Positions 23,072 to 36,206 of a DNA stretch of 64,000 nucleotides are shown here, piece by piece. The stretch is from Acidimicrobiia bacterium (GTDB lineage Bacteria > Actinomycetota > Acidimicrobiia > Spongiisociales > ZC4RG35): contig JACCTH010000044.1 in the NCBI GenBank assembly GCA_013812505.1, forward strand, positions 1-64,000, read 5' to 3'. Position numbers and translations under genes: made by a program. The notes beneath the pieces were generated by a model. It did no database searches. It saw only the letters and a list, made by a program, of their open reading frames with translations, and had not been told where the DNA came from. Positions within the stretch are counted from its first letter, which is position 1. Every line of letters starts with the position of its first letter.

Positions 23072-24265
23072 GAGAAGAACGGCGCCGGCCAGGGCCGCGC
23101 CGATGGCGGTCGAGAGCGCCATCCTGCGCAGCCGCAACTGCCCTAGGACCACCCCGTCGAGCACCCACAACCACGCAGAGACGATTGCAAACGTCGCGAC
23201 GATTGGCGTAGTCGAATGAATCTGTTGGGTCACCGCCTCATTGGGGGCGAAGGCGACGGCGAGAGGGCTTGCAGCGACGAGCCAGAAACCGGTCAAGACG
23301 ACTCCAACGACGGTCCCCCAGAACAAGAGCCGCCGGATCATCTCGGAGTCGTCGGCCCGGCGCCCGGCGGCTTCGGCGACCAAAGTTTGAGCCGCGATCG
23401 CCAGACCGTCAACCACCATCGCGGTGAGGAACCAGGTTTCTCGCACCACCTGATGAGCGGCGAGCTGAGCAGTGCCGAGGCTGGCGGCGCTAGCCGTGGT
23501 GGCGGCGAGGGTGAGAACGAGGAGGAGCGTGCGCATCGTCACCCAACCACCGGGGCGGAGGAGAGCGGCCAATCCGGAACGGCTGATTGCGATCATCGAG
23601 AGGCTCTCCACCCGCGTGCGGAGACGGGTCAACAACAGCATCGCCCCGAGGTACTGGGCGATTAGCGAGGCGAGCGCAGACCCGGCCACCCCCAAACCCA
23701 GACCAAAGATGAAAAACCAGTTGAGCCCGATGTTGACGACGTTCGCGAGCAAGGCGACTAACAACGGCGTTCGGGTGTCGGCGAGCCCGCGAAAACCGCC
23801 ATGGGCAGCAAGAGTCACCAACACAGCAGGGGCGGCAAAAGCTCGGATCCGCAGATAGTCAAGGGCTGGACCTCGTACCCCGGGGCCCGCCTGCATGACG
23901 TCGAGGAGCAGGGAGGCGAGCAGCACCAGCAACGCGGTCGCCAGCACCCCGAGCAATGCTCCGAGGACGACCGCCCGACTAATCACGGCCTCGGCTTCGC
24001 GTTGGTCGCCCGCGCCCACCGCCCGCGCCACGAGCGGGGTCGTCACATAAGCCAGGAAGTTGAAGACGACAAAAGCAAAGCCGAAGATTGCTCCGTTGAC
24101 ACCGAGGGCGGCCAACGCCTCGGGTCCTAATCGGGCGACGAAGGCGGTGTCGGCCAGTGACAGCAACGGGTCGGCGGCGAGCGCCCCTACCGCGGGGATC
24201 GCCAAGGCGAAGATCCGCCGATCGATCTGTCTTAAGAACCCAGTCTTTTCAGACGAGCGGTTCAC
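22949..24265 (-). CDS. MATE family efflux transporter
   Basis: IPAVGALAADPLLSLADTAFVARLG; GTG start at 24265 overlaps the nth stop (GTGA). Confidence 0.9.
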   Translation of the reverse strand: MNRSSEKTGFLRQIDRRIFALAIPAVGALAADPLLSLADTAFVARLGPEALAALGVNGAIFGFAFVVFNFLAYVTTPLVARAVGAGDQREAEAVISRAVVLGALLGVLATALLVLLASLLLDVMQAGPGVRGPALDYLRIRAFAAPAVLVTLAAHGGFRGLADTRTPLLVALLANVVNIGLNWFFIFGLGLGVAGSALASLIAQYLGAMLLLTRLRTRVESLSMIAISRSGLAALLRPGGWVTMRTLLLVLTLAATTASAASLGTAQLAAHQVVRETWFLTAMVVDGLAIAAQTLVAEAAGRRADDSEMIRRLLFWGTVVGVVLTGFWLVAASPLAVAFAPNEAVTQQIHSTTPIVATFAIVSAWLWVLDGVVLGQLRLRRMALSTAIGAALAGAVLLLIPRLGWGLAGVWVAVGAMVLGRLGVLVWGGFKRTTLGLG

Positions 24266-24996
24266 GGTCCGTACGAGGTTCGCTTGAGCGGCCAGCGGCA
24301 GATGCGATTGAGCTCGCACACCCGGCACAGCGGTCGTTGCGCGTCGCAGATATCGCGGCCGAACTGGATGAACCGCATCGAGACGCCCACCCACTCCTTC
24401 CGCGGGTAAAGGGCGCGCAGATCCATCTCGATCCGGACCGGGTCAAGCGACTCGGTGAGGTCGAGCCTCCCCGCGACCCGACGCACATGGGTGTCAACCG
24501 CGATCGCGGGTCTGGCAAACGCCTCGGTGAGAATGACACTGGCGGTCTTGCGGCCGACCCCGGGAAGAGTGACGAGCTGGTCGAGGTCGTTGGGCACGAC
24601 CCCATCGAAGCGCTCAACCAGAGCGGCGCTGAGCTTGATGATCGACTTTGTCTTCTGCCGGAAAAACCCGGACGAGTGGATGATCCGCTCGACCTCCTCA
24701 GGGTCGGCAATGGCAAGGTCGGTCGGAGTTGGGTAACGGGCGAAGAGGATCGGCGTGATCCGGTTGACGTTGTCGTCCGTGGTTTGCGCCGACATGACCG
24801 TTGCGACGAGTAGTTGCCAAGGATCAGCGAAGGCGAGCGCCGTGCCGATTTCGGGGTAGCGACGTTTGAGGCGATCGAGGATCGTGCGGGCTCGCCGCTT
24901 GGCTGACGCGCTCGGAGTCGGCGACGGCAACGGCGGCTTGGGCACCCGGCTGATGGTATTGACTCGATCTAGCCTTCTCGCCCCGAAAGGACGCAT
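24262..24996 (-). CDS. nth: Endonuclease III
   Basis: HhH motif LPGVGRKTASVIL, catalytic VDTHVRRVAGRL, FeS cysteines C-x6-C-x2-C-x5-C. Confidence 0.95.
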   Translation of the reverse strand: MRPFGARRLDRVNTISRVPKPPLPSPTPSASAKRRARTILDRLKRRYPEIGTALAFADPWQLLVATVMSAQTTDDNVNRITPILFARYPTPTDLAIADPEEVERIIHSSGFFRQKTKSIIKLSAALVERFDGVVPNDLDQLVTLPGVGRKTASVILTEAFARPAIAVDTHVRRVAGRLDLTESLDPVRIEMDLRALYPRKEWVGVSMRFIQFGRDICDAQRPLCRVCELNRICRWPLKRTSYGP

Positions 24997-25871
24997 TGCG
25001 CCGATCAACTCTCGCCGGTCTCGCGATCACGTTGGCCTCGTTCCTGTTTGGGACCACGTTCGTTGTAATCAAAGACGCGGTGGCGGTCTTCCCGCCGATC
25101 TCCTTCGTCGCCTGGCGGTTCCTGCTTGGAGGCCTGGTGCTGACCCTGATCGCCCTACCGAGCCGTCGCCCGCTCCCCGGCTACGTTTCGATCTGGCGTG
25201 ATGCGGCCATCGCCGGAGCACTGCTCTTCCTGGGTTACGCCTTCCAAACCGCCGGTCTGACCACCACCGGAGCGTCGAACTCGGCGCTGATCACCGGCCT
25301 GTTCATCGTGATCACACCTTTGCTAAACGGACTGTTCGCCCGTCGATTGCCTCGTCCTTTCGTCCTCCTTGGCGCCTTGATCGCGTTTTTCGGGGTGTAT
25401 CTGCTCACTGCAGAACCCGGAGCCCGATTTGTCACCGGCGACTTGCTCACGATCGGCGCGGCCTTCTCGTTCGCCGGCCACATCCTCGCCCTCGACCGGT
25501 TTGCCCACCGCCACCCAATCGTCCTGTTCACTGCTTACCAACTCCTTGTTACCGCCGTGCTGGCTCTGCCCGCGGCACTTGTCACCGAGGGCCTCCCGTT
25601 TCCGAGCCGGCGCGAGGTGCCGGCGTTGCTTGTCACCGCCATCGGCGTTTCCGCCGGGGCCTACCTGCTCCAGATCTGGGCGCAGACGGTGATCGGACCG
25701 GCGCGAACCGGGGTCTTGCTGGCCCTGGAACCAACCTTCGCCGTCGCCACGGCCGCGGTCGTGCTCGACGAGCGACTCTCAGCTCGGGGATGGGTCGGAG
25801 CGGGCTTGATCGTGGGGGCGATCTTCCTTGTTATCGCTCGCGGCGAAGAGTCGCTCAAAACCGCGTATTAG
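24996..25871 (+). CDS. DMT superfamily (EamA) transporter
   Basis: Ten hydrophobic segments, duplicated EamA pattern; TTG start. Confidence 0.9.
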   Translation: MRRSTLAGLAITLASFLFGTTFVVIKDAVAVFPPISFVAWRFLLGGLVLTLIALPSRRPLPGYVSIWRDAAIAGALLFLGYAFQTAGLTTTGASNSALITGLFIVITPLLNGLFARRLPRPFVLLGALIAFFGVYLLTAEPGARFVTGDLLTIGAAFSFAGHILALDRFAHRHPIVLFTAYQLLVTAVLALPAALVTEGLPFPSRREVPALLVTAIGVSAGAYLLQIWAQTVIGPARTGVLLALEPTFAVATAAVVLDERLSARGWVGAGLIVGAIFLVIARGEESLKTAY

Positions 25872-25929
25872 CCGAACCTAAGGTATGGGTGGTTGCATAG
25901 CCACCAAAATCGCCTTAAGAATGAGCCAC

Positions 25930-26181
25930 TCAGCGTTGCAAGCGGCGGTAGAGGTGGGTGGCGAGCCGGATGATCGCCACCACCACCATCAACGACACCA
26001 CCAGGTAAACCGCCAACGTCGGTCCGGCGGTGAACCGTTCCGGGCAGGCTTGCAGCCCGCCTGCGCAGAGGCCGTAACCAGTCCCGCCGCCGACCAGATC
26101 CAAGAGCACGAGGACCGGCAGCGCCGCCACCACCAAGGCGGCCACGACGAGCACCAGGATCAAGAGCCTGAGGGCGAGCAT
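25930..26181 (-). CDS. Small membrane protein, unknown function
   Basis: 83 aa with two hydrophobic segments; convergent to the EamA gene. Confidence 0.5.
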   Translation of the reverse strand: MLALRLLILVLVVAALVVAALPVLVLLDLVGGGTGYGLCAGGLQACPERFTAGPTLAVYLVVSLMVVVAIIRLATHLYRRLQR

Positions 26182-26234
26182 CGCCGGTCACGGTACCGAG
26201 TCCGACGTGTCATCTCGGTAAACTCCACGGCCGC

Positions 26235-27851
26235 TTGTCCTACTACGAGGAACCATTCACACCCGCGGAAGCCGAGGTCCTCGGTCGGTTCTTCACCAAC
26301 GTCGACCGGCCGGTTTTCGCCCTTATCAACCTGCCCGAGGTCGTCAAAGGCGCCCTCTTCGCTCGCTACTCGCGCTCGGCCAAGTCGGTCCGGCGACTCT
26401 TCCTCGATGAGTTCGTCAACGACCCTGAATCCGGGATCGCCGCCATCGCGAATACGAGTGACCCGCTGGTCGACCACAAGCGCGCCGAGGACTTGTATCG
26501 GCGCGTGTTCTTCGAATACGGCGACGACTCGGTGGCTCAGCTCGGCGGCGTCCACCTCGCTTGTGAGCAAGCCTCCAACATCCTGACGAAGGTCCTCGAG
26601 TGGGGACGTCTCGCCTCCTACCTCGAACAGTCGACTCGCTACATCGCCTACGACGCGCTGCTTGGAGATCGCTATCGATACCTGGTGCCCGCCGAAATCG
26701 AGAAGGCCGGTCTCGGCCCCGGGTATCGAGATTTGATGGAAGGCATCTTCAAGACCTATCGAGGAATGGTCAGCACGATGACGGATTACTTCGAGCGTCG
26801 GTTCCCGCGCAGTGAGAGCGACTCCAAGTTCGCCTGGACCGCATCGATCAGAGCGAAGGCATGTGACACCGTACGCGGGCTGCTGCCAGCGTCAACTTTG
26901 TCCAATGTCGGCATCTACGGCAGCGGCCAGGCCTATGAGATGGCATTGGTGCGGATGGCCGCCCATCCCCTCGCCGAAGTGCGGGACTACGGGGAGATGA
27001 TGCTCACCGAGCTGCGCAAGGTGATCCCCTCGTTTCTCACCCGGGTCGATCTCCCCGATCGAGGTGGTGCGTGGAGCGATTACCTGCGGGCCGGCCGCGA
27101 GGCAATCGAAGCCATCGCTCCGCGCTTTGGCGACGACCACCAAGTTGGCGAGGCAGGTCAGCAAGTCGAATTAACCGACTGGGATCCCGACGGTGAGCTG
27201 AAGCTGGCTGCGGCCGCGCTCTATACGGGTTCGGATTTGTCGGACCTCGAACTTTCCGACTACGTCAAAGGGCTCGGTCTCGAGCAGCGGAGCGAAGTGA
27301 TCGCCGCCTTGATCGGGGACCGCGGCAATCGGCGACACAAACCGGGTCGGGCGCTGGAGCGGATCGTCTATCGATTCGATGTCGTCTGCGACTTCGGCGC
27401 CTTCCGCGACCTGCAACGTCATCGGCTGATGACGATCGAATGGCAGCGACTGGGCACGAGGCTCGGTTACCAGTGTCCACCCGAGCTCGAGGACGCAGGT
27501 GTAGCCCCTGACTTTCGCCGGGTCATGGAACAGGCCGGCGAATTCCATCAGAAAGCCCTCAGTGCCGTCGGCCCCGATGGCGCCCAGTACGTGGTCCCGT
27601 TTGCGTTCCAGATCCGCTTCGTCGTGGAGATGAACGCCCGGCAAGCATTCCATCTGATCGAGCTGCGGTCCCAGCCCGCAGGTCACCCCTCGTATCGCCA
27701 GGTGGTATTGGAGATGCATCGCCGCATCGACGAGGTCGCCGGCCACCACTCCGTCGCCGAGGCAATGAAGTTCGTTGACTATTCCGAGGTGGAGTTAGAA
27801 CGGCTGGCGAGCGAGCGGCGCGCCGAACAACGTCGCCTCGGCTCGTCCTAA
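26235..27851 (+). CDS. Two-domain ThyX-like (FAD-dependent thymidylate synthase family) protein
   Basis: 538 aa with two ThyX-like halves (WGRLASYLEQSTRY; RHRLMTIEWQRLGTRLGY). Confidence 0.8.
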   Translation: MSYYEEPFTPAEAEVLGRFFTNVDRPVFALINLPEVVKGALFARYSRSAKSVRRLFLDEFVNDPESGIAAIANTSDPLVDHKRAEDLYRRVFFEYGDDSVAQLGGVHLACEQASNILTKVLEWGRLASYLEQSTRYIAYDALLGDRYRYLVPAEIEKAGLGPGYRDLMEGIFKTYRGMVSTMTDYFERRFPRSESDSKFAWTASIRAKACDTVRGLLPASTLSNVGIYGSGQAYEMALVRMAAHPLAEVRDYGEMMLTELRKVIPSFLTRVDLPDRGGAWSDYLRAGREAIEAIAPRFGDDHQVGEAGQQVELTDWDPDGELKLAAAALYTGSDLSDLELSDYVKGLGLEQRSEVIAALIGDRGNRRHKPGRALERIVYRFDVVCDFGAFRDLQRHRLMTIEWQRLGTRLGYQCPPELEDAGVAPDFRRVMEQAGEFHQKALSAVGPDGAQYVVPFAFQIRFVVEMNARQAFHLIELRSQPAGHPSYRQVVLEMHRRIDEVAGHHSVAEAMKFVDYSEVELERLASERRAEQRRLGSS

Positions 27852-27995
27852 GAAAGCTTCGAGGGGGTCGGATCGGGGCGCGGGCGGGCCTTCAACGAAG
27901 ATGAGCATTCGCTCCCCGGCCTCGTCCCGCCATTCTTCAACCACGAAGAAGGCCCGGACCTCTGGGTCAGCGGTGCCGGTATCCCCCTGTCCCAA
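27795..27995 (-). CDS. Possible small protein, convergent with and overlapping the ThyX-like gene
   Basis: 66 aa with protein-like stretch FVVEEWRDEAGERMLIFVEGPP; start lies inside repeat copy B. Confidence 0.3.
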   Translation of the reverse strand: MGQGDTGTADPEVRAFFVVEEWRDEAGERMLIFVEGPPAPRSDPLEAFLGRAEATLFGAPLARQPF

Positions 27996-28103
27996 AATTT
28001 GTCCTGTGGCGAAACCTCAAAACCAAATTCGTCCTCACAAGCACGAGCACGACACGCTATGGGACGGATTATGAAAATCGGTTTCCTTTGGGGACAAATT
28101 ACG
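27990..28103. repeat. Dispersed intergenic repeat, copy B
   Basis: 28025-28103 matches 700-778; left flank AAAATTTGTCCTGTGGCGAA is shared with copy C and inverted in copy D. Confidence 0.85.
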
Positions 28104-28141
28104 GTGGCGACGTTTGCAAGGCTCCCTGATAATTTGAGGTC

Positions 28142-28363
28142 ATGGCTGAGCTCGATATAGACGCACTCATCGCCCGATACCGACAACGCGCACAGGCGGT
28201 GAAGGAGAGGGGACTGCCGCCGGTCGCCGGTGACGAAAGAAAGCTCCTGATCGAACAGGCCGAGAAGGACTTTCTCGACTATGCGTTGATCGCGGCGGCG
28301 AGTTGGACAGTCGAGGGCGACGAGCTGATCCTGCGCATCCCCCTCCACCCTCAAGCATCCTGA
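28142..28363 (+). CDS. Small conserved-type hypothetical upstream of the ArsA/Get3 pair
   Basis: 73 aa, directly precedes and is co-oriented with the ATPase genes. Confidence 0.65.
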   Translation: MAELDIDALIARYRQRAQAVKERGLPPVAGDERKLLIEQAEKDFLDYALIAAASWTVEGDELILRIPLHPQAS

Positions 28364-28378
28364 GGGGAGCCCGAGCTC

Positions 28379-29212
28379 ATGACCAGGCTGATCCTGGTGT
28401 CCGGCAAAGGGGGGGTGGGAAAGTCGGCCCTGGCGGCAAGCCTGGCCCTCGCCCACCATCGAGCCGGCGCTCGAGTGCTGGCGATCGATGTCGCCGCCAC
28501 CGGAGGTTTGGCTGCGCATCTCGGAGTGGCCTCGCTGGCCTTCAAAGCGCAGACGATCAAGACCGGACTCAACGCCCTGGCGGTGGACCGCTCGAAAGCG
28601 TTGATCGAGTACCTGCAAGTGCAGGTGGGGATGCCTGGTCTCGGCACGCTCGGGCCGGCCGCTCGGTTCTTCGACGCCCTCGCCTCGACTGCGCCCGGGG
28701 TGCGCGAAGTCGTCACCTTGGGCAAAGTCGTGTGGGAGGTCAAAAAGAAGCAGTACGACGTCGTGGTCGCCGATTGCCCTCCGACCGGTCAGGTCACGGG
28801 CCTGTTGCGTGCGCCGGAAACCGTCTCTTCCTTGGTGCCCGCCGGGCGCATCCGTCAGCAAGCCGAATGGATGTCAGAGATCCTTCGTTCACCGAAACGA
28901 TCCGAGTTGATCGTGGTGACGCTCGCCGAAGAGTTGCCAACCATCGAAACCGAAGAGACCATGTCCATGCTCGACGAGTCGAAGCTCATCGGGTCGACGA
29001 TGATCGTCACCAATCGAGTCCTGGGGCGGTTGCGTACCGAGGCGAAAGGTGTGGACGAGGTAGCTGAAGCAGCCGCGCTCCATCGTTCGCTCTTTCACAG
29101 CCAGCAGGAATGGCTCGAGCGGCTTCCCCCTCGTAAGAAGTTTCCGTATCTCTTCGGGGTCTTCACCGAGAGCGAGATTGCGGCCCGACTATCCGACCTC
29201 TGGGGCGAGTGA
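28379..29212 (+). CDS. ArsA/Get3-like ATPase, subunit 1
   Basis: VSGKGGVGKSALAASLALAHHRAG; VVADCPPTGQVTGLLRAP switch-like motif. Confidence 0.88.
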   Translation: MTRLILVSGKGGVGKSALAASLALAHHRAGARVLAIDVAATGGLAAHLGVASLAFKAQTIKTGLNALAVDRSKALIEYLQVQVGMPGLGTLGPAARFFDALASTAPGVREVVTLGKVVWEVKKKQYDVVVADCPPTGQVTGLLRAPETVSSLVPAGRIRQQAEWMSEILRSPKRSELIVVTLAEELPTIETEETMSMLDESKLIGSTMIVTNRVLGRLRTEAKGVDEVAEAAALHRSLFHSQQEWLERLPPRKKFPYLFGVFTESEIAARLSDLWGE

Positions 29213-30231
29213 TGGCGAAAGCTGTGATCGTCACCGGGGCCGGAGGGGTGGGGAAGACCACCGTGGCTGCCTCGTTGGCGGTGCGGGCCGCCAGCGAAGG
29301 CAAGGAAACCCTGGTGCTCACGGTTGATCCTGCTCGGCGGCTGGCCTCCGCGCTCGGCGTCAAGCTGGGGGGCCGGCCGGTGCGCCATCCGGAAGTCCCA
29401 CGGTTATGGGGGGCGATGATCGATGGTGCTGCGTCTTGGATCACAGTCGCCCGTCGCCACGCCGACCCGGCAGTGGCCGACCGGCTCGTCAACAACGAGT
29501 TCTTCGAGGCGGCAACTGTCCACTTCCCGGCCAGCCAGTCGTATGCAGCCGCGGAAGAGGCGGCCACCTACATCGATTCCTTGCGATGGGATGTAGTTGT
29601 AATCGACACACCTCCGGCGGCGGGAGGGATCGAGTTCTTCACCGCCCCGGCCCGGATGGCCGACCTCGTGGGCGGCCGGCTGTTGCGGCTTCTCACCGGC
29701 GGACGCATCCCCGGGCGGAACGCGCTATTTAATAGGGGGGCGCGACCACTGCTCCGCTTTGCGGACCAGCTCCTCGGAGCCGATCTGCTCGAACGGGTGG
29801 CACTCTTCCTGATGGACCTCCGCAGCACCTATGACGGGGTCGCGAAACAGTCGAAGCGCATCGAAGCACACTTTCGCCGAGCGGCCACCCTGGTCGTCAC
29901 CACCGCCGATCCGGCGCCGCTCGCGGAAGCGGCGCGGTTCTTCGAGGAGTTGCCGGAGGTGGCCGCGCCACCGGTGGCCGTGATCTTCAACCGAACTCTC
30001 CCCGCCAGTTGGGCGCAGGCCGAAGTGCCGGCTCGCACCTCGGCCGAGCTGGCCGACAACCTCCATCGCTGGGGAGCCGAGTCGCAGCGCCAACGCGATG
30101 CCCGCGCCGGCTTTGCGGCTCGTTTCACCGCTCCCCTCTGCACGATCCCCTGGCTGGCCGAATCCCCGACCGAGCTTGCGGGCTTGCGGTCGATCATCGA
30201 CCTTGCCGACGGGTTGCCGCGGCTCTGGTAG
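29209..30231 (+). CDS. ArsA/Get3-like ATPase, subunit 2
   Basis: VTGAGGVGKTTVAASLAVRAA; VDPARRLASALG; VVIDTPPAAGGIEFF; ATGA-type overlap with subunit 1. Confidence 0.9.
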   Translation: MMAKAVIVTGAGGVGKTTVAASLAVRAASEGKETLVLTVDPARRLASALGVKLGGRPVRHPEVPRLWGAMIDGAASWITVARRHADPAVADRLVNNEFFEAATVHFPASQSYAAAEEAATYIDSLRWDVVVIDTPPAAGGIEFFTAPARMADLVGGRLLRLLTGGRIPGRNALFNRGARPLLRFADQLLGADLLERVALFLMDLRSTYDGVAKQSKRIEAHFRRAATLVVTTADPAPLAEAARFFEELPEVAAPPVAVIFNRTLPASWAQAEVPARTSAELADNLHRWGAESQRQRDARAGFAARFTAPLCTIPWLAESPTELAGLRSIIDLADGLPRLW

Positions 30232-30259
30232 CGCGATTCCAGACCGATAACCTTCTCGG

Positions 30260-31024
30260 ATGACTTCGGCGGCTTTCTTCGACCTCGACCGGACCCTGAT
30301 CTCGGGCGCCTCGGTCTTTCCTTTCGGGGTCGAGGCGTGGCGGGCCGGATTGCTCAAGAATTCCGACATTGCCAAATACGCCGCCGGGGCGCTCGCCTTT
30401 CTGGCGTTCGGGGACAAGGGCGTCAAATCCGAGGGGACCCGAGCCGCGATCCTGGGCCACGTCGACGGGGTCTCAGTCGAGATGCTGGACGAAGTGTCAG
30501 CGAAGGTGCTGCCCAAGCTCATCGACCGCGTCCGGCCGGAATCTCACAAGCTTTTGCAAATGCATCACGATGCCGGGCGGGAAATGTGGATCGTCTCGGC
30601 CTCTCCTTACGGAATCGTTGCACCGCTGGCCGACACGCTCGGCATGACCGGCGCCATTGCCACCAGAGGAAAGGTAATCGAAGGCCACTACTCCGCGGAG
30701 CTCGAAGGGCCGTTCGTCTACGGGGCAGGCAAGGCCGACGCCATCGCCCGCCTCGCCACGGAACGGAATTACGACCTGGTGGCGAGTTACGCCTACTCCG
30801 ACTCGATCTCCGACCTCCCCATGCTCGAGTTGGTCGGGCACCCGGTGGCGGTGAACCCCGATAGCCAGCTCGAGAACACGGCCCATGATCGCGGCTGGCC
30901 GGTGGTGATCTTTGCCCGTAAGACGAAACGGGCGATGGCCCTCGGTCTCGGCACCACCGCCGCCGCCGGGGCCCTCGCCGGGACCTACGCCCTCGGCCGC
31001 CACCACGGCAAACTCCGAACCTAG
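30260..31024 (+). CDS. HAD-IB family (SerB-like) hydrolase
   Basis: FFDLDRTLISGAS, IVSASPYGIVAPLA, YAYSDSISDLPMLELVGHPVAVNPD. Confidence 0.9.
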   Translation: MTSAAFFDLDRTLISGASVFPFGVEAWRAGLLKNSDIAKYAAGALAFLAFGDKGVKSEGTRAAILGHVDGVSVEMLDEVSAKVLPKLIDRVRPESHKLLQMHHDAGREMWIVSASPYGIVAPLADTLGMTGAIATRGKVIEGHYSAELEGPFVYGAGKADAIARLATERNYDLVASYAYSDSISDLPMLELVGHPVAVNPDSQLENTAHDRGWPVVIFARKTKRAMALGLGTTAAAGALAGTYALGRHHGKLRT

Positions 31025-31052
31025 CGACCCGGATCGCAAAAGAATTTGGCCA

Positions 31053-31484
31053 ATGGTCGATTTCGGCTTCGTCCTCAACGACACGATCTCGCTTCGCCAG
31101 GGGGCCCGAGACGGAGCGCGGCATGCGGTCGTCAGCAACGTAGGCACCAACTCGAGCTGCACCCTCACCGGCTTTGCCGGCGTGGACGGCTCCGACACCG
31201 ACCGGATCTTTTGCCTGGTCAAGGAGCGAGTCGGGCTCAACCACACCAACATTCGGGTAAAGATCGATTTCGAGACAACTTTCACTGCCAAGAAGTCGCT
31301 GGCGGTCTGTGTCATGTACCCGATCAGATCGGTCTCGGGGCTCTCGGCCCCATTCCTGAGCGGCGCTTTCAAGACCGAGGTGCAAATGCGAATCGAGGAA
31401 ACCAACGTGGTCATCACCGAGGCGCAGGAGACAGCGCTCACCGGTCAGAACTGGAGCTGGTGCGTAGCTGAGGTCACCTCTTGA
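31053..31484 (+). pseudogene. TadE-like pilus protein lacking its N-terminal transmembrane segment
   Basis: TadE-like body MVDFGFVLNDTISLRQGARDGARHAVVSN... but no hydrophobic N-terminal helix; the HAD stop lies 28 nt upstream. Confidence 0.7.
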
Positions 31485-32700
31485 ACGAGCAGTCCCGGGA
31501 GCAGGGCGCGGCGATCGTCCTGGTGGCGTTCGCCCTGGTCTTCCTCGGTGGGCTGGCGGCGATCGTGGTCGATGTCGGCTACGCCCGTCAGGTGCGACGC
31601 CAAGCGCAAAACGCTGCCGATGCGGGTGCGCTCGCCACCGTGGTCGATTACAACGGCACTCCCGCCACCGAGAACGCCGCGCGCGCGCGGGCGGTCGAAT
31701 ACGTGGAGGACAACGGATTCTCCTCGGGAAATGCCACCGTTGCGATCAGCTTCTTGACCAATGCCGCCGGCGACCCGTGTGTGCGAGCGACGATCAGCAA
31801 TCGCCTAGTGCCGACTTCGTTCGGCAGATCATCGGTGTTAATTCGCTGAACGTCGGCGCCAGCTCCACCGCCTGCCAGCCGCCCGGCAATGTCACCCTGC
31901 CGGGGCTCTTTGCCGGCGGCACCTGCACCGGGCCCGGTAAGGCCATGGTCCTGTCCGGAAACGACAACAAGATCGAGGGTGGCGTCCACAGCAACGCCGA
32001 TGCGAAAGAGAACGGCAACAACAACACCCGAGTCAGCGGCAACGCCACGTATGTCACGAATCCTCTTGACATCTCTGGCTCCGGAGCCCATTGGTGGACG
32101 GGAGCGACGCATATCTCTGCGGTGCCCTGGCCGATGGCGTTCAATATCGCCGACTTCGCTCCCGGTGGCTCGAGAGCGGTTGCCGCCGCCGGAAACTACT
32201 TCAGCTTTACCGGCGACCAGGTCCGCAACGGCGCCGTCAATGCAGGGATCTACTACACCACCGGGAAGTGGGAGCTGACTTCGGTCACGGTGACCCCGTT
32301 CAACGGCCGCACCGGGGCGACCTTCGTCTCGTCGGGCGGGTTGATCGACCTGAAAGGCAACGTCAACATCCGGCCCTACTCGGGAATCCCCGAACGGTTG
32401 GTCCTTTTCACGAATTGGAACGATGGCAAGACGGGCAACAACCGATGTGATGCAGAAGTCCTGAAGCTCAGCGGCAACTGCAACCATTTCGACGGCGTTG
32501 TCTAGGTTCCCAATGGGTCATATCGGGCATCCGGCGAGGGAAACGGGAACGACCACGCCGGAGGCTCGTGTGGTGCGAGTCCCTCCAACACCTACGCCGG
32601 GGGCATAATCGCCTTTGGGGTGAATATCAGCGGCAACTTCAACCTCCATCGGGGCGCGAGCGTGCCCTACGGCCAAGGCAGCCCCTACCTCTCGGACTAG
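31481..32700 (+). pseudogene. TadG-like protein disrupted by a -1 frameshift (about 31816) and an in-frame TAG (32503-32505)
   Basis: Frame 1: EQGAAIVLVAFALVFLGGLAAIVVDVGYARQVRRQAQNAADAGALA...VRATISNRLVPT; continues in another frame as FVRQIIGVNSLNVGASSTA...DGVV*VPNGSYRASG...PYGQGSPYLSD*. Confidence 0.8.
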
Positions 32701-35700
32701 ATCACCGCTCCTGGACCGAGCAACTCCTTGAGCTCGGCGTAGAAGGTCGAACTGGGGCTCACCCGGTGGCTGTCATCGAAACGCAGGACTTTGTGGGTGT
32801 CACCAGACTCCAGATGGAGCATCACCGAAGCGGCTCCAGGGTGGTTCTGGAGAATCGATTTGAGTTGGTTCACCAGCCGAGCCGACACGGCTCGGGCAGC
32901 GATCTTGAGCCGGACCGTCGCGTCGGTCCGCAGCTTCACTTCGCGAATAGATTTCGCCCGGAACTTGCGCTCGTCCCCCCGCTGGTCGAGGGTGCCGTCG
33001 ACGAGGACGATGGCGTCGGGGTTGACCAGTTGGCCGAACTCAGCGGTGGTGCGCGGGAAGGCCATCACTTCGATCGACGAGTCGAGATCTTCGAGTTGGA
33101 AGAAAAGGATCAGCTCGTTGTTGCGGGTAAAGCGTCGTGAGATCGAACCGACGAGGCCGCCGATGGTCGCGGCAGAACGGTCCGGAAGCTCGACGAGCGA
33201 GCTGATCGGGCTCGCCTCGGCGACAAGCACCGAGCCCACCATCAACAGCGGATGATCGGACACATAGAGACCGAGCATCTCTTTCTCGAACCCGAGCCTG
33301 ACTTTGGGTGACCATTCGTCGCGGGCTAGTTCGACTGGCACCGGGGCAACCTCAGCCGCATCGGCGCCAAACAACGAGAACTGACCGAGGTCCTCGTTGC
33401 GCCGGCGCTCGATCGTGCCTTCGAGGATTTCCTCGAAAGCCAAGAACAGGCTCTTGCGGCTGTGCCCCATCCCGTCGAAGGCGCCCGCCTTGACTAGCGA
33501 TTCGACGGTCCGTTTGTTGAGGGCGAGCATGTCAACCCGATTTGCAAAATCAGAGAAATCGACGAACGGCGCCTCCTGTCGAGCCGCAATGATCTTCTCT
33601 ACCACCCCCTCACCGACGTTCCGGACCGCCGACAAGCCGAATCGAATCTTGCCGTCGCTCACGATGAAATCGACATCCGACTCGTTGACGTCGGGAACGA
33701 GCACGTCGATGCCCTGGTTGCGGGACTCGGCTAGATAGATGGCGGTCCGATCCTTGTCCTTCTTGGTGGCGGTGAGCAGGGCCGCCAAATACTCGGGGGC
33801 GTAGTGGGCCTTCAGCCAGGCGGTCTGATAGGCCACCACCGCATAGCAGGCGGCGTGCGCCTTGTTGAAGCCGTAACCGGCGAACGGCTCGATGGCGTCG
33901 AAGATCCCCGCTCCCACCTCGCGGAGATAGCCCTGATTGACACAGCCGGCGATGAACTTGGCGCGATGGGCAGCCATCTTTGCCTTGACCTTTTTTCCCA
34001 TCGCACTGCGCAGCTCGTCAGCTTCCGCCATCGTGTACCCAGCCATAGCCTGGGCGGCCTGCATCACCTGCTCCTGATAGACCATGATTCCGTAGGTGTC
34101 GCGCAGAAACGGCTCCAGCGCTTCGTGGGGAAATCCCACCGCCTCACGCTGGTTCTTGCGCTCGGCATAGGCGGTGTGCATGTTGGCTGCCAAAGGCCCG
34201 GGCCGGTAAAGCGAGATCAACGCGATGATGTCTTCGAAGCGGTCGGGCGCCAGATTTCGGACCAAGCTCCGAAGGCCCGTGCCCTCGAGTTGAAAGACCC
34301 CGACCGTGTCGCCCCGACGCAGGAGCTCGAACACCGCCGGGTCGTCAAATCCTTTCTGGTCGATATCGACGTCGATCCCTTTCCCGTCTCTGATCAGTTC
34401 CAAGGTGCGTTCGATGATCGAAAGGTTGCGAAGGCCGAGGAAGTCCATCTTCAGCAGTCCGAGCGCGGCGATTCCCTTCATCTCGTACTGGGTGACGACT
34501 TCGGCTTCCTCCCCCTTGCGCTGGACCGGCACGAGCTCGGTGAGCGGGGCGGGGGTGATGACAACGGCCGCGGCGTGAATCGAGTCCTGCCGACGCAAAT
34601 TCTCGAGGCCGCGCGCCATGTCGATCACTTCTCGCGCCGCCTGGTCGGTCGCATAGAGAGAGCGAAGCTCGGACGCCTTGTCGTGCTGATCACGGTCCTC
34701 TCGAGAGGCGTCGGCCGGCAGCTGATCGAGAACCAGCTTGAGGCTCGCTTCTCTTCCGAGAATCGGCGGGGGCATTGCCTTGGCCAAGCGATCGCCAACC
34801 GCATACGGGTGACCCAATACCCGGGCTGAGTCGCGCAGCGCCTGCTTGCCCTTGATCGTCGAGAAAGTGACGACTTGCGCCACATGATCCGAGCCATATT
34901 TCTCGGCGGCATATCGAATGACCTCGGAGCGATAACGCTCATCGAAATCCATGTCGATGTCCGGCATCTCCCGGCGCCCGGGGTTGAGGAAGCGCTCGAA
35001 GATGAGGCCGTAGGCGATCGGGTCGAGATCGGTGATGCGAAGCGAATAGGCAACGATCGAGCCGGCGGCCGAGCCGCGGCCGGGCCCAACCCGAATCTTG
35101 CGCTCACGGGCGAAGCGAATCAGGTCCCAAACGATGAGGAAATAGGCGGGGAACCCCATTTCGGTGATCACCGCCAGCTCGCTTTGGATCCGTTCGACGG
35201 CCTCGGTGGGAAGAGGATCTCCATAACGCTCCCGAGCGCCTTGCTCGACTAGGTGACCGAGGTAGCTCTCCTCCGTGAATCCGGCAGGGACCGGGAATTG
35301 CGGGAGAAGGTAGGTCCCGAACTCGAGAGTCACCTCGGCCCGCTCCGCCACGAGCAACGTGTTGTCGCAGGCGTCGGGGTAGAGGTCGGCCGGGAAGAGC
35401 TCTCGCATCTGGGCCGCTGACTTGAGATAGAACTCCTGGGCATCGAACTTGAACCGGTTGGCCTCGTCGCGGTTGGCCCCGGTCTGTATGCATAACAGCA
35501 CGTCGTGAGCGTCGGCCTCATGGCGGTGGGTGTAGTGAGCGTCGTTGGTCGCCAGCAATGGTGCCCCGATCTGACGGCCGATCTCGAGCAGGTCCGGGGT
35601 CACCTGCCTTTGGGCCTCGAGGCCGTGATCCATCACCTCGATGTAGAAGTTCTCCTGACCGAAGATGTCCTGGTACTGAGACGCAGCCTTGAGGGCGGCG

Positions 35701-36206
35701 TCGAAGTCGCGCACTGCTCTTCGCCCACCTTCCTCGCGGTTCGCATCGGGCGCCAGGTGACGGGCCACAGGCCCGCTCAAACAGCCCGAGGTGGCGACGA
35801 TGCCTTCGGAAAAGCGCGCCAAGAGGTCGGTGTCCATGCGCGGCTTGTAGTAGTAACCCTCGAGGTAGGCGAGCGAGGAAAGTTGCATCAGGTTGCGATA
35901 GCCCACCTGGCTTGTCGCCAATAGGGTCATGTGCATCCGGACGTTCTCCGCCGCTCGCGGCCGGTCAAACCGGGACCCATCAACTACGTAGGCCTCGATG
36001 CCGATGATCGGCTTGATCCCGGCGCCCTTGGCAGCCTGGTAAAAGTCGACGACTCCGTACATCACCCCGTGATCGGTGATCGCAACGGCCGGTTGCCCGT
36101 CTGCTGCTGCCGCTGCGACCACATCGTTGACCCGGGCGGCCCCATCGAGCATCGAGTACTCAGTGTGGAGATGGAGGTGGGCGAACGACGCCCCGGAAAA
36201 CGACAA
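32697..36206 (-). CDS. dnaE: DNA polymerase III alpha subunit
   Basis: PHP start FAHLHLHTEYSMLDGAA, PDIDMDFDERYR, GYGFNKAHAACYAVVAYQTAWLKAHY. Confidence 0.98.
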   Translation of the reverse strand: MSFSGASFAHLHLHTEYSMLDGAARVNDVVAAAAADGQPAVAITDHGVMYGVVDFYQAAKGAGIKPIIGIEAYVVDGSRFDRPRAAENVRMHMTLLATSQVGYRNLMQLSSLAYLEGYYYKPRMDTDLLARFSEGIVATSGCLSGPVARHLAPDANREEGGRRAVRDFDAALKAASQYQDIFGQENFYIEVMDHGLEAQRQVTPDLLEIGRQIGAPLLATNDAHYTHRHEADAHDVLLCIQTGANRDEANRFKFDAQEFYLKSAAQMRELFPADLYPDACDNTLLVAERAEVTLEFGTYLLPQFPVPAGFTEESYLGHLVEQGARERYGDPLPTEAVERIQSELAVITEMGFPAYFLIVWDLIRFARERKIRVGPGRGSAAGSIVAYSLRITDLDPIAYGLIFERFLNPGRREMPDIDMDFDERYRSEVIRYAAEKYGSDHVAQVVTFSTIKGKQALRDSARVLGHPYAVGDRLAKAMPPPILGREASLKLVLDQLPADASREDRDQHDKASELRSLYATDQAAREVIDMARGLENLRRQDSIHAAAVVITPAPLTELVPVQRKGEEAEVVTQYEMKGIAALGLLKMDFLGLRNLSIIERTLELIRDGKGIDVDIDQKGFDDPAVFELLRRGDTVGVFQLEGTGLRSLVRNLAPDRFEDIIALISLYRPGPLAANMHTAYAERKNQREAVGFPHEALEPFLRDTYGIMVYQEQVMQAAQAMAGYTMAEADELRSAMGKKVKAKMAAHRAKFIAGCVNQGYLREVGAGIFDAIEPFAGYGFNKAHAACYAVVAYQTAWLKAHYAPEYLAALLTATKKDKDRTAIYLAESRNQGIDVLVPDVNESDVDFIVSDGKIRFGLSAVRNVGEGVVEKIIAARQEAPFVDFSDFANRVDMLALNKRTVESLVKAGAFDGMGHSRKSLFLAFEEILEGTIERRRNEDLGQFSLFGADAAEVAPVPVELARDEWSPKVRLGFEKEMLGLYVSDHPLLMVGSVLVAEASPISSLVELPDRSAATIGGLVGSISRRFTRNNELILFFQLEDLDSSIEVMAFPRTTAEFGQLVNPDAIVLVDGTLDQRGDERKFRAKSIREVKLRTDATVRLKIAARAVSARLVNQLKSILQNHPGAASVMLHLESGDTHKVLRFDDSHRVSPSSTFYAELKELLGPGAVI

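Follow-up and report, generated by a model that had tools for sequence, protein, structure and literature searches.

A Tandem thyX Gene in the Acidimicrobiia Window

We analysed a window of 64,000 nucleotides from an Acidimicrobiia bacterium (contig JACCTH010000044.1, positions 1 to 64,000 of the forward strand), which carries a tandem thyX gene followed by a pair of ATPase genes (Table 1). The PF02511 (Thy1) model matched the product in two stretches, at approximately residues 65-266 and 317-502 in a six-frame search, with 127.4 bits against the Pfam gathering cut-off of 24.8, and this score and the predicted ThyX fold place the protein in the Thy1/ThyX superfamily. With the thyX equivalog model TIGR02170, it scored 51 bits, below the cut-off of 87.9 for canonical ThyX, and it is therefore an atypical ThyX. 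The initial annotation had described a two-domain ThyX-like protein on the basis of two motifs, and both are present in the 538-aa protein, WGRLASYLEQSTRY at residues 123-136 in half 1 and RHRLMTIEWQRLGTRLGY at residues 395-412 in half 2. The canonical arrangement RHR(x7)SxR was not found within one domain of this protein or of its 154 relatives, where RHR lies in half 2 only and SxRY in half 1 only.

Table 1. Features of the tandem thyX gene and its neighbours in the window. Residue counterparts are numbered as in Thermotoga maritima (Tm) ThyX.
Feature	Coordinates	Strand	Evidence
Tandem (double) thyX, 538 aa, TTG start codon, stop codon included	26235..27851	+	ORF, Pfam, TIGR, AlphaFold
Half 1, putative dUMP-side ThyX domain, residues 1-300	26235..27134	+	Canonical ThyX profile match (98.9), AlphaFold
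LPEVVKGALFARYSRS, residues 33-48, conserved N-terminal segment of half 1; S46 and R47 in 154/154	26331..26378	+	Alignment
GDDS, residues 96-99, half 1, counterpart of canonical GHxS	26520..26531	+	Alignment, profile
WGR, residues 123-125, half 1, degenerate counterpart of the FAD-binding RHR	26601..26609	+	Alignment, profile, AlphaFold
YLEQSTRY, residues 129-136, half 1, retained dUMP/catalytic side	26619..26642	+	Alignment, profile
RGLLP, residues 214-218, half 1	26874..26888	+	Alignment, profile
M241, half 1, lost position of the catalytic R174	26955..26957	+	AlphaFold, alignment
Half 2, putative FAD-side ThyX domain, residues 301-538	27135..27848	+	Canonical ThyX profile match (99.2), AlphaFold
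RHR, residues 395-397, half 2, FAD-binding motif (R78 H79 R80)	27417..27425	+	Alignment
NAR, residues 467-469, half 2 (N163 A164 R165)	27633..27641	+	Alignment
ELR, residues 476-478, half 2	27660..27668	+	Alignment
Two ArsA/GET3-type ATPases (BagA/BagB-like), slot markers and not parts of the enzyme	28379..30231	+	Profile matches, synteny

The Two Halves Have Lost Complementary Residues

Residue conservation was scored in 154 non-redundant double-ThyX relatives, with identities down to approximately 20%. A profile-profile alignment of 18 canonical ThyX sequences with each half (probability 98.9 for half 1 and 99.2 for half 2) fixed the residue register, and the same register follows from the strands and helices of the AlphaFold model. 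A direct profile comparison of half 1 with half 2 gave no useful signal (probability 14.5).

According to the initial annotation, half 1 has lost the RH but keeps the E.S.RY side of the signature, and half 2 keeps RHR but has lost SxRY; this pattern recurs in all 154 relatives. In half 1, E131, S133, R135 and Y136 (E86, S88, R90 and Y91 in Tm) and R214 (R147) are each conserved in 154/154 sequences, as is S99 of the GDDS motif (T/S55), while D97 of the same motif is replaced by H in distant phage and plasmid copies. The half 1 counterparts of R78, H79, R80 and R174 are W/R, G, mostly R and M/L, respectively, with M in 116/154 and L in 36/154 at the R174 position, although the adjacent R240 is an arginine in 135/154, and other gapping could place an arginine there. 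In half 2, the R395, H396 and R397 columns are each found in 154/154, as is R478, the counterpart of the dUMP-activating R174, and the positions of E86, S88, R90, Y91 and R147 are occupied by W, R/P/K, S/T/G, P/T/V and Q/P/S. N163, R165 (R469) and H169 are retained in half 2 in 143, 147 and 139 of the 154 relatives and are lost in half 1.

The split is wider than the signature motif, with R147 kept in half 1 only and R174 in half 2 only, and R80 is the sole residue of the split set that is widely kept in both halves. It persists in jumbo-phage and Bacillus-plasmid copies at 20-26% identity. With the split residues invariant (154/154), the pattern of residue loss is far beyond chance. In half 2 of the three plasmid copies from Bacillus and Paenibacillus, RHNR takes the place of RHR. 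A pseudoenzyme was considered and rejected because the catalytic residues are invariant.

Both Halves Are Predicted to Adopt the ThyX Fold

Structure prediction, which the initial annotation had proposed as a check, gave a full ThyX fold in both halves, with all of the ThyX strands and helices modelled in each (AlphaFold with 113 relatives, pLDDT 93.2, pTM 0.91). An AlphaFold run with 12 sequences only had modelled half 1 poorly (pLDDT 73), and this was solved by the use of 113 sequences. A Foldseek search of the PDB matched T. maritima ThyX with a TM score of up to 0.75 on the target; it returned single-domain ThyX only, and no double ThyX was found among the solved structures. A single-sequence search of the PDB reached E ~ 0.3 at best, so that profile and fold methods were needed.

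The Partition of Residues Follows the A and C Subunit Roles of Canonical ThyX

One active site of canonical ThyX is built from residues of three subunits, A, B and C, where subunit A gives RHR and R199 in the M. tuberculosis (Mtb) enzyme (R174 in Tm), subunit B gives S71 and R190 (T55 and R165), and subunit C gives Q103, S105, R107 and Y108 (E86, S88, R90 and Y91) (PMC6514825). R174, S88, R90 and Y91 are catalytically important, R174 activating dUMP and S88, R90 and Y91 assisting the use of the flavin-bound methylene (PMC8316439). In the double ThyX, the A-role residues all lie in half 2 and the C-role residues all lie in half 1; the A- and C-role ligand residues that have a Tm counterpart are all present in the chain (8/8) and invariant among the 154 relatives. 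The B-role counterparts are divided, with T/S55 represented by S99 in half 1 and R165 by R469 in half 2, so the A and C roles are cleanly separated between the halves, unlike the B role. As judged from the alignments, this partition of the A- and C-role residues is what a composite site would predict. Since the groups expected to activate dUMP and to assist the methylene lie on different halves, neither half should be able to catalyse alone, provided that the chemistry is the same.

Alternatively, one half might be catalytic, with a complete but diverged site, and the other a structural or regulatory pseudo-domain. Canonical ThyX does match half 2 alone by sequence, but S88, R90, Y91 and R147 are not conserved in half 2, and their invariance in half 1 (154/154) would be unexpected for a passive pseudo-domain, which makes such a division extremely unlikely.

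We therefore favour a composite site: two ThyX copies would have fused into one flavin-dependent thymidylate synthase and shared out its tasks afterwards. Half 1 would bind dUMP and contribute S133, R135 and Y136, the counterparts of the methylene-transfer helpers, whereas half 2 would hold FAD through its RHR and supply R478. Because canonical sites already draw on different subunits of the homotetramer, a fused chain could lose, at each site, the half that the other copy supplies. Two such chains would most likely pair as a pseudo-tetramer in which two composite sites work and two others are dead, and a site could form within one chain or across two chains. We thus infer a tandem dimer with probably two composite sites, compared to four in the canonical homotetramer. 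The suggestion in the initial annotation that the halves jointly form a single composite site is favoured as regards the composite by the match between residues and subunit roles, whereas the single site would become two per tandem dimer.

The Double ThyX Is Very Probably the Thymidylate Synthase of the Cell

The assembly containing the window (2.82 Mb, 93% complete) has only one PF02511 gene, the double thyX. The search for a canonical thyX or a thyA elsewhere in the genome, also proposed initially, found neither with the Pfam models, at a completeness (93%) that leaves room for a missed thyA. ThyA makes dihydrofolate and needs dihydrofolate reductase (DHFR), whereas ThyX does not. Among 149 Acidimicrobiia genomes with a completeness of at least 85%, 120 carry a double ThyX, 14 a canonical ThyX and 11 ThyA only, and the four that lack any synthase are all 85-89% complete. 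The 14 canonical-ThyX genomes all belong to one genus with genomes of ~1 Mb. ThyA was found in 3/120 double-ThyX genomes compared to 11/15 genomes without ThyX (p = 1e-10), one of the three matches being in two pieces and one weak, and DHFR was found in 4/120 double-ThyX genomes compared to 7/11 ThyA-only genomes (p = 9e-7) and in none of the 14 with canonical ThyX; the genomes are related and not phylogenetically independent, and both p-values overstate their independence. Since ThyA needs DHFR and ThyX does not, the rarity of DHFR alongside the double ThyX fits ThyX chemistry. Four genomes of one genus in the order to which the window belongs (G080, G122, G127 and G148) carry ThyA and gave no DHFR match (PF00186) in 4/4 cases, and they may have another dihydrofolate reductase.

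We also compared the chromosomal slot of the gene (window positions 24262-36206) with that of thyA-folA. The gene order in the double-ThyX relatives is MatE, nth, EamA, double thyX, bagA, bagB, (HAD), dnaE. Three further genera of the same family (genomes G013, G083 and G042) carry thyA-folA there, flanked by nth or EamA on one side and by bagA-bagB-HAD-dnaE on the other, and in a fourth genus (G034), thyA-folA is located ~5 kb off, beside ccdA. Double thyX and thyA-folA have replaced each other in place. The adjacent genes had been described initially as not being folate genes, which is true here, but thyA-folA fills the same slot in three related genera. The ArsA/GET3-type ATPase pair, related to the mycobacterial BagA/BagB, is conserved beside thyX or thyA across the family. 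One genome (G105) carries both thyA-folA (G105:C8:48396-49669) and a double ThyX, and it is a possible intermediate of the exchange. From the phyletic complementarity and the exchange in place, the double ThyX is predicted to replace ThyA and to make DHFR dispensable.

A different flavin-dependent role, also raised in the initial annotation, is disfavoured by these results. A ThyX-derived enzyme could serve another purpose, for example, UMP methylation as in PolB of polyoxin biosynthesis, without being the thymidylate synthase of the cell, and PolB (PDB 4p5b) appeared in the Foldseek results for the first AlphaFold model, which indicates that the ThyX fold has been put to other uses; the score under the thyX equivalog cut-off also speaks for this reading. 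However, most hosts of the double ThyX have no other thymidylate synthase candidate that was found, it and ThyA almost never occur in one genome, it is replaced in place by thyA-folA, and it behaves as a housekeeping-type gene across the Acidimicrobiia, outside any biosynthetic cluster, so we consider another role highly unlikely. In a further reading, which we consider very unlikely, the site is composite but certain hosts can do without it, owing to thymidine salvage or a second synthase: thymidine kinase occurs in 51/120 double-ThyX genomes and G105 has two synthase systems, but 66 double-ThyX genomes, including that of the window, have neither ThyA nor thymidine kinase. In summary, the double ThyX is very probably the thymidylate synthase of the cell, with its activity predicted from comparative evidence, and we are confident in its interpretation as a fused two-copy ThyX with divided roles and a composite site, for which catalysis, dimerisation and the number of sites are deduced.

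A Single Fusion Accounts for a Widespread Family

A scan of contigs matched at least 588 stretches, which indicates that the double-ThyX family is common. Relatives were found in the Actinomycetota, Chloroflexota (Dehalococcoidia and others), Acidobacteriota and Bacteroidota (Parabacteroides and Prevotellaceae), as well as on viral contigs, on a Parabacteroides plasmid, on Bacillus and Paenibacillus plasmids of ~200-230 kb, in jumbo phages of Vibrio and Tunturiibacter and in the Microcystis phage LMM01. A tree built from 29 double proteins, split into their halves, and 18 canonical ThyX places the first halves in one clade (100/100) and the second halves in another (100/98), so a single fusion accounts for all copies; long branches make the internal order of the tree uncertain.

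Several of the mobile copies deserve a separate mention. On the Bacillus licheniformis and Paenibacillus plasmids (~210-230 kb, classed as non-mobilizable), the double ThyX is very divergent, whereas the copy on the 278-kb Parabacteroides distasonis plasmid NZ_OY725790.1 is 47% identical to that of the window. The Vibrio and Tunturiibacter jumbo phages and LMM01 encode a double ThyX, one copy of which is labelled merely as a hypothetical protein, and the full-length matches in the viral library were just a 461-residue protein and the LMM01 thymidylate synthase. The sequence CAMDSG010000010.1, titled Bifidobacterium breve, contains an Acidimicrobiia-like double ThyX, and its title is probably wrong.

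Relation to Known ThyX Enzymes

Each half is predicted to share the fold of canonical homotetrameric ThyX, or FDTS (T. maritima TM0449 and M. tuberculosis), and every A- and C-role residue of these enzymes is present once per chain; the expected chemistry is the same, with DHFR unneeded. The double ThyX differs in its two fused domains, each of which misses a complementary part of the site. PolB, the UMP/dUMP methylase of Streptomyces cacaoi, has the ThyX fold in common, but it is a single-domain protein of antibiotic biosynthesis, and the double thyX lacks such a context. The ThyX of Chlamydia trachomatis, a candidate member of this family, may also be of double length and is reportedly enzymatically active. 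Griffin et al. 2005 is cited for this enzyme in PMC8316439.

The synthases of LMM01 (PHROG 36506) and of the Vibrio and Tunturiibacter phages are collinear double ThyX proteins with the same split residues, approximately 22-28% identical over the matched parts, and they keep the GHxS histidine in half 1. Literature searches with partial coverage for a composite or duplicated ThyX returned only Valas and Bourne 2009, in which a domain-duplicated ThyX of Chloroflexi is called uncharacterised, the Chloroflexi except Dehalococcoides have only the duplicated ThyX, and no mention of a divided active site was found (PMC3224940). These duplicated proteins belong to the same family, as the Chloroflexota copies share the split residues. 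Within the same partial coverage, no paper was found that describes how the losses complement each other, that the pattern is invariant or that it matches the subunit roles. Hence, the duplication has been on record since 2009, and the split active site appears, tentatively, to be undescribed.

What a Divided Site Would Imply

We think it likely that each active site of this family is obligatorily built from specialised, fused dUMP and FAD halves, an arrangement that would have been fixed early and carried as a unit through four phyla, plasmids and jumbo phages. If this is true, the fusion let a four-site homotetramer shed half of its catalytic residues, and the family would offer a clean natural example of a shared-site oligomer that was subdivided after fusion. 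Databases label these genes 'FAD-dependent thymidylate synthase', and such ordinary annotation hides a protein in which no domain has a complete active site. The handling of dUMP and that of FAD would lie on separate, independently mutable halves of this ThyX, which makes the subunit contributions, half-site behaviour and methylene transfer directly testable. The locus exemplifies an in-place swap of ThyX with ThyA-DHFR and, by all comparative signs, many environmental bacteria, which together form a large group, would have in the double ThyX an essential enzyme of DNA-precursor supply.
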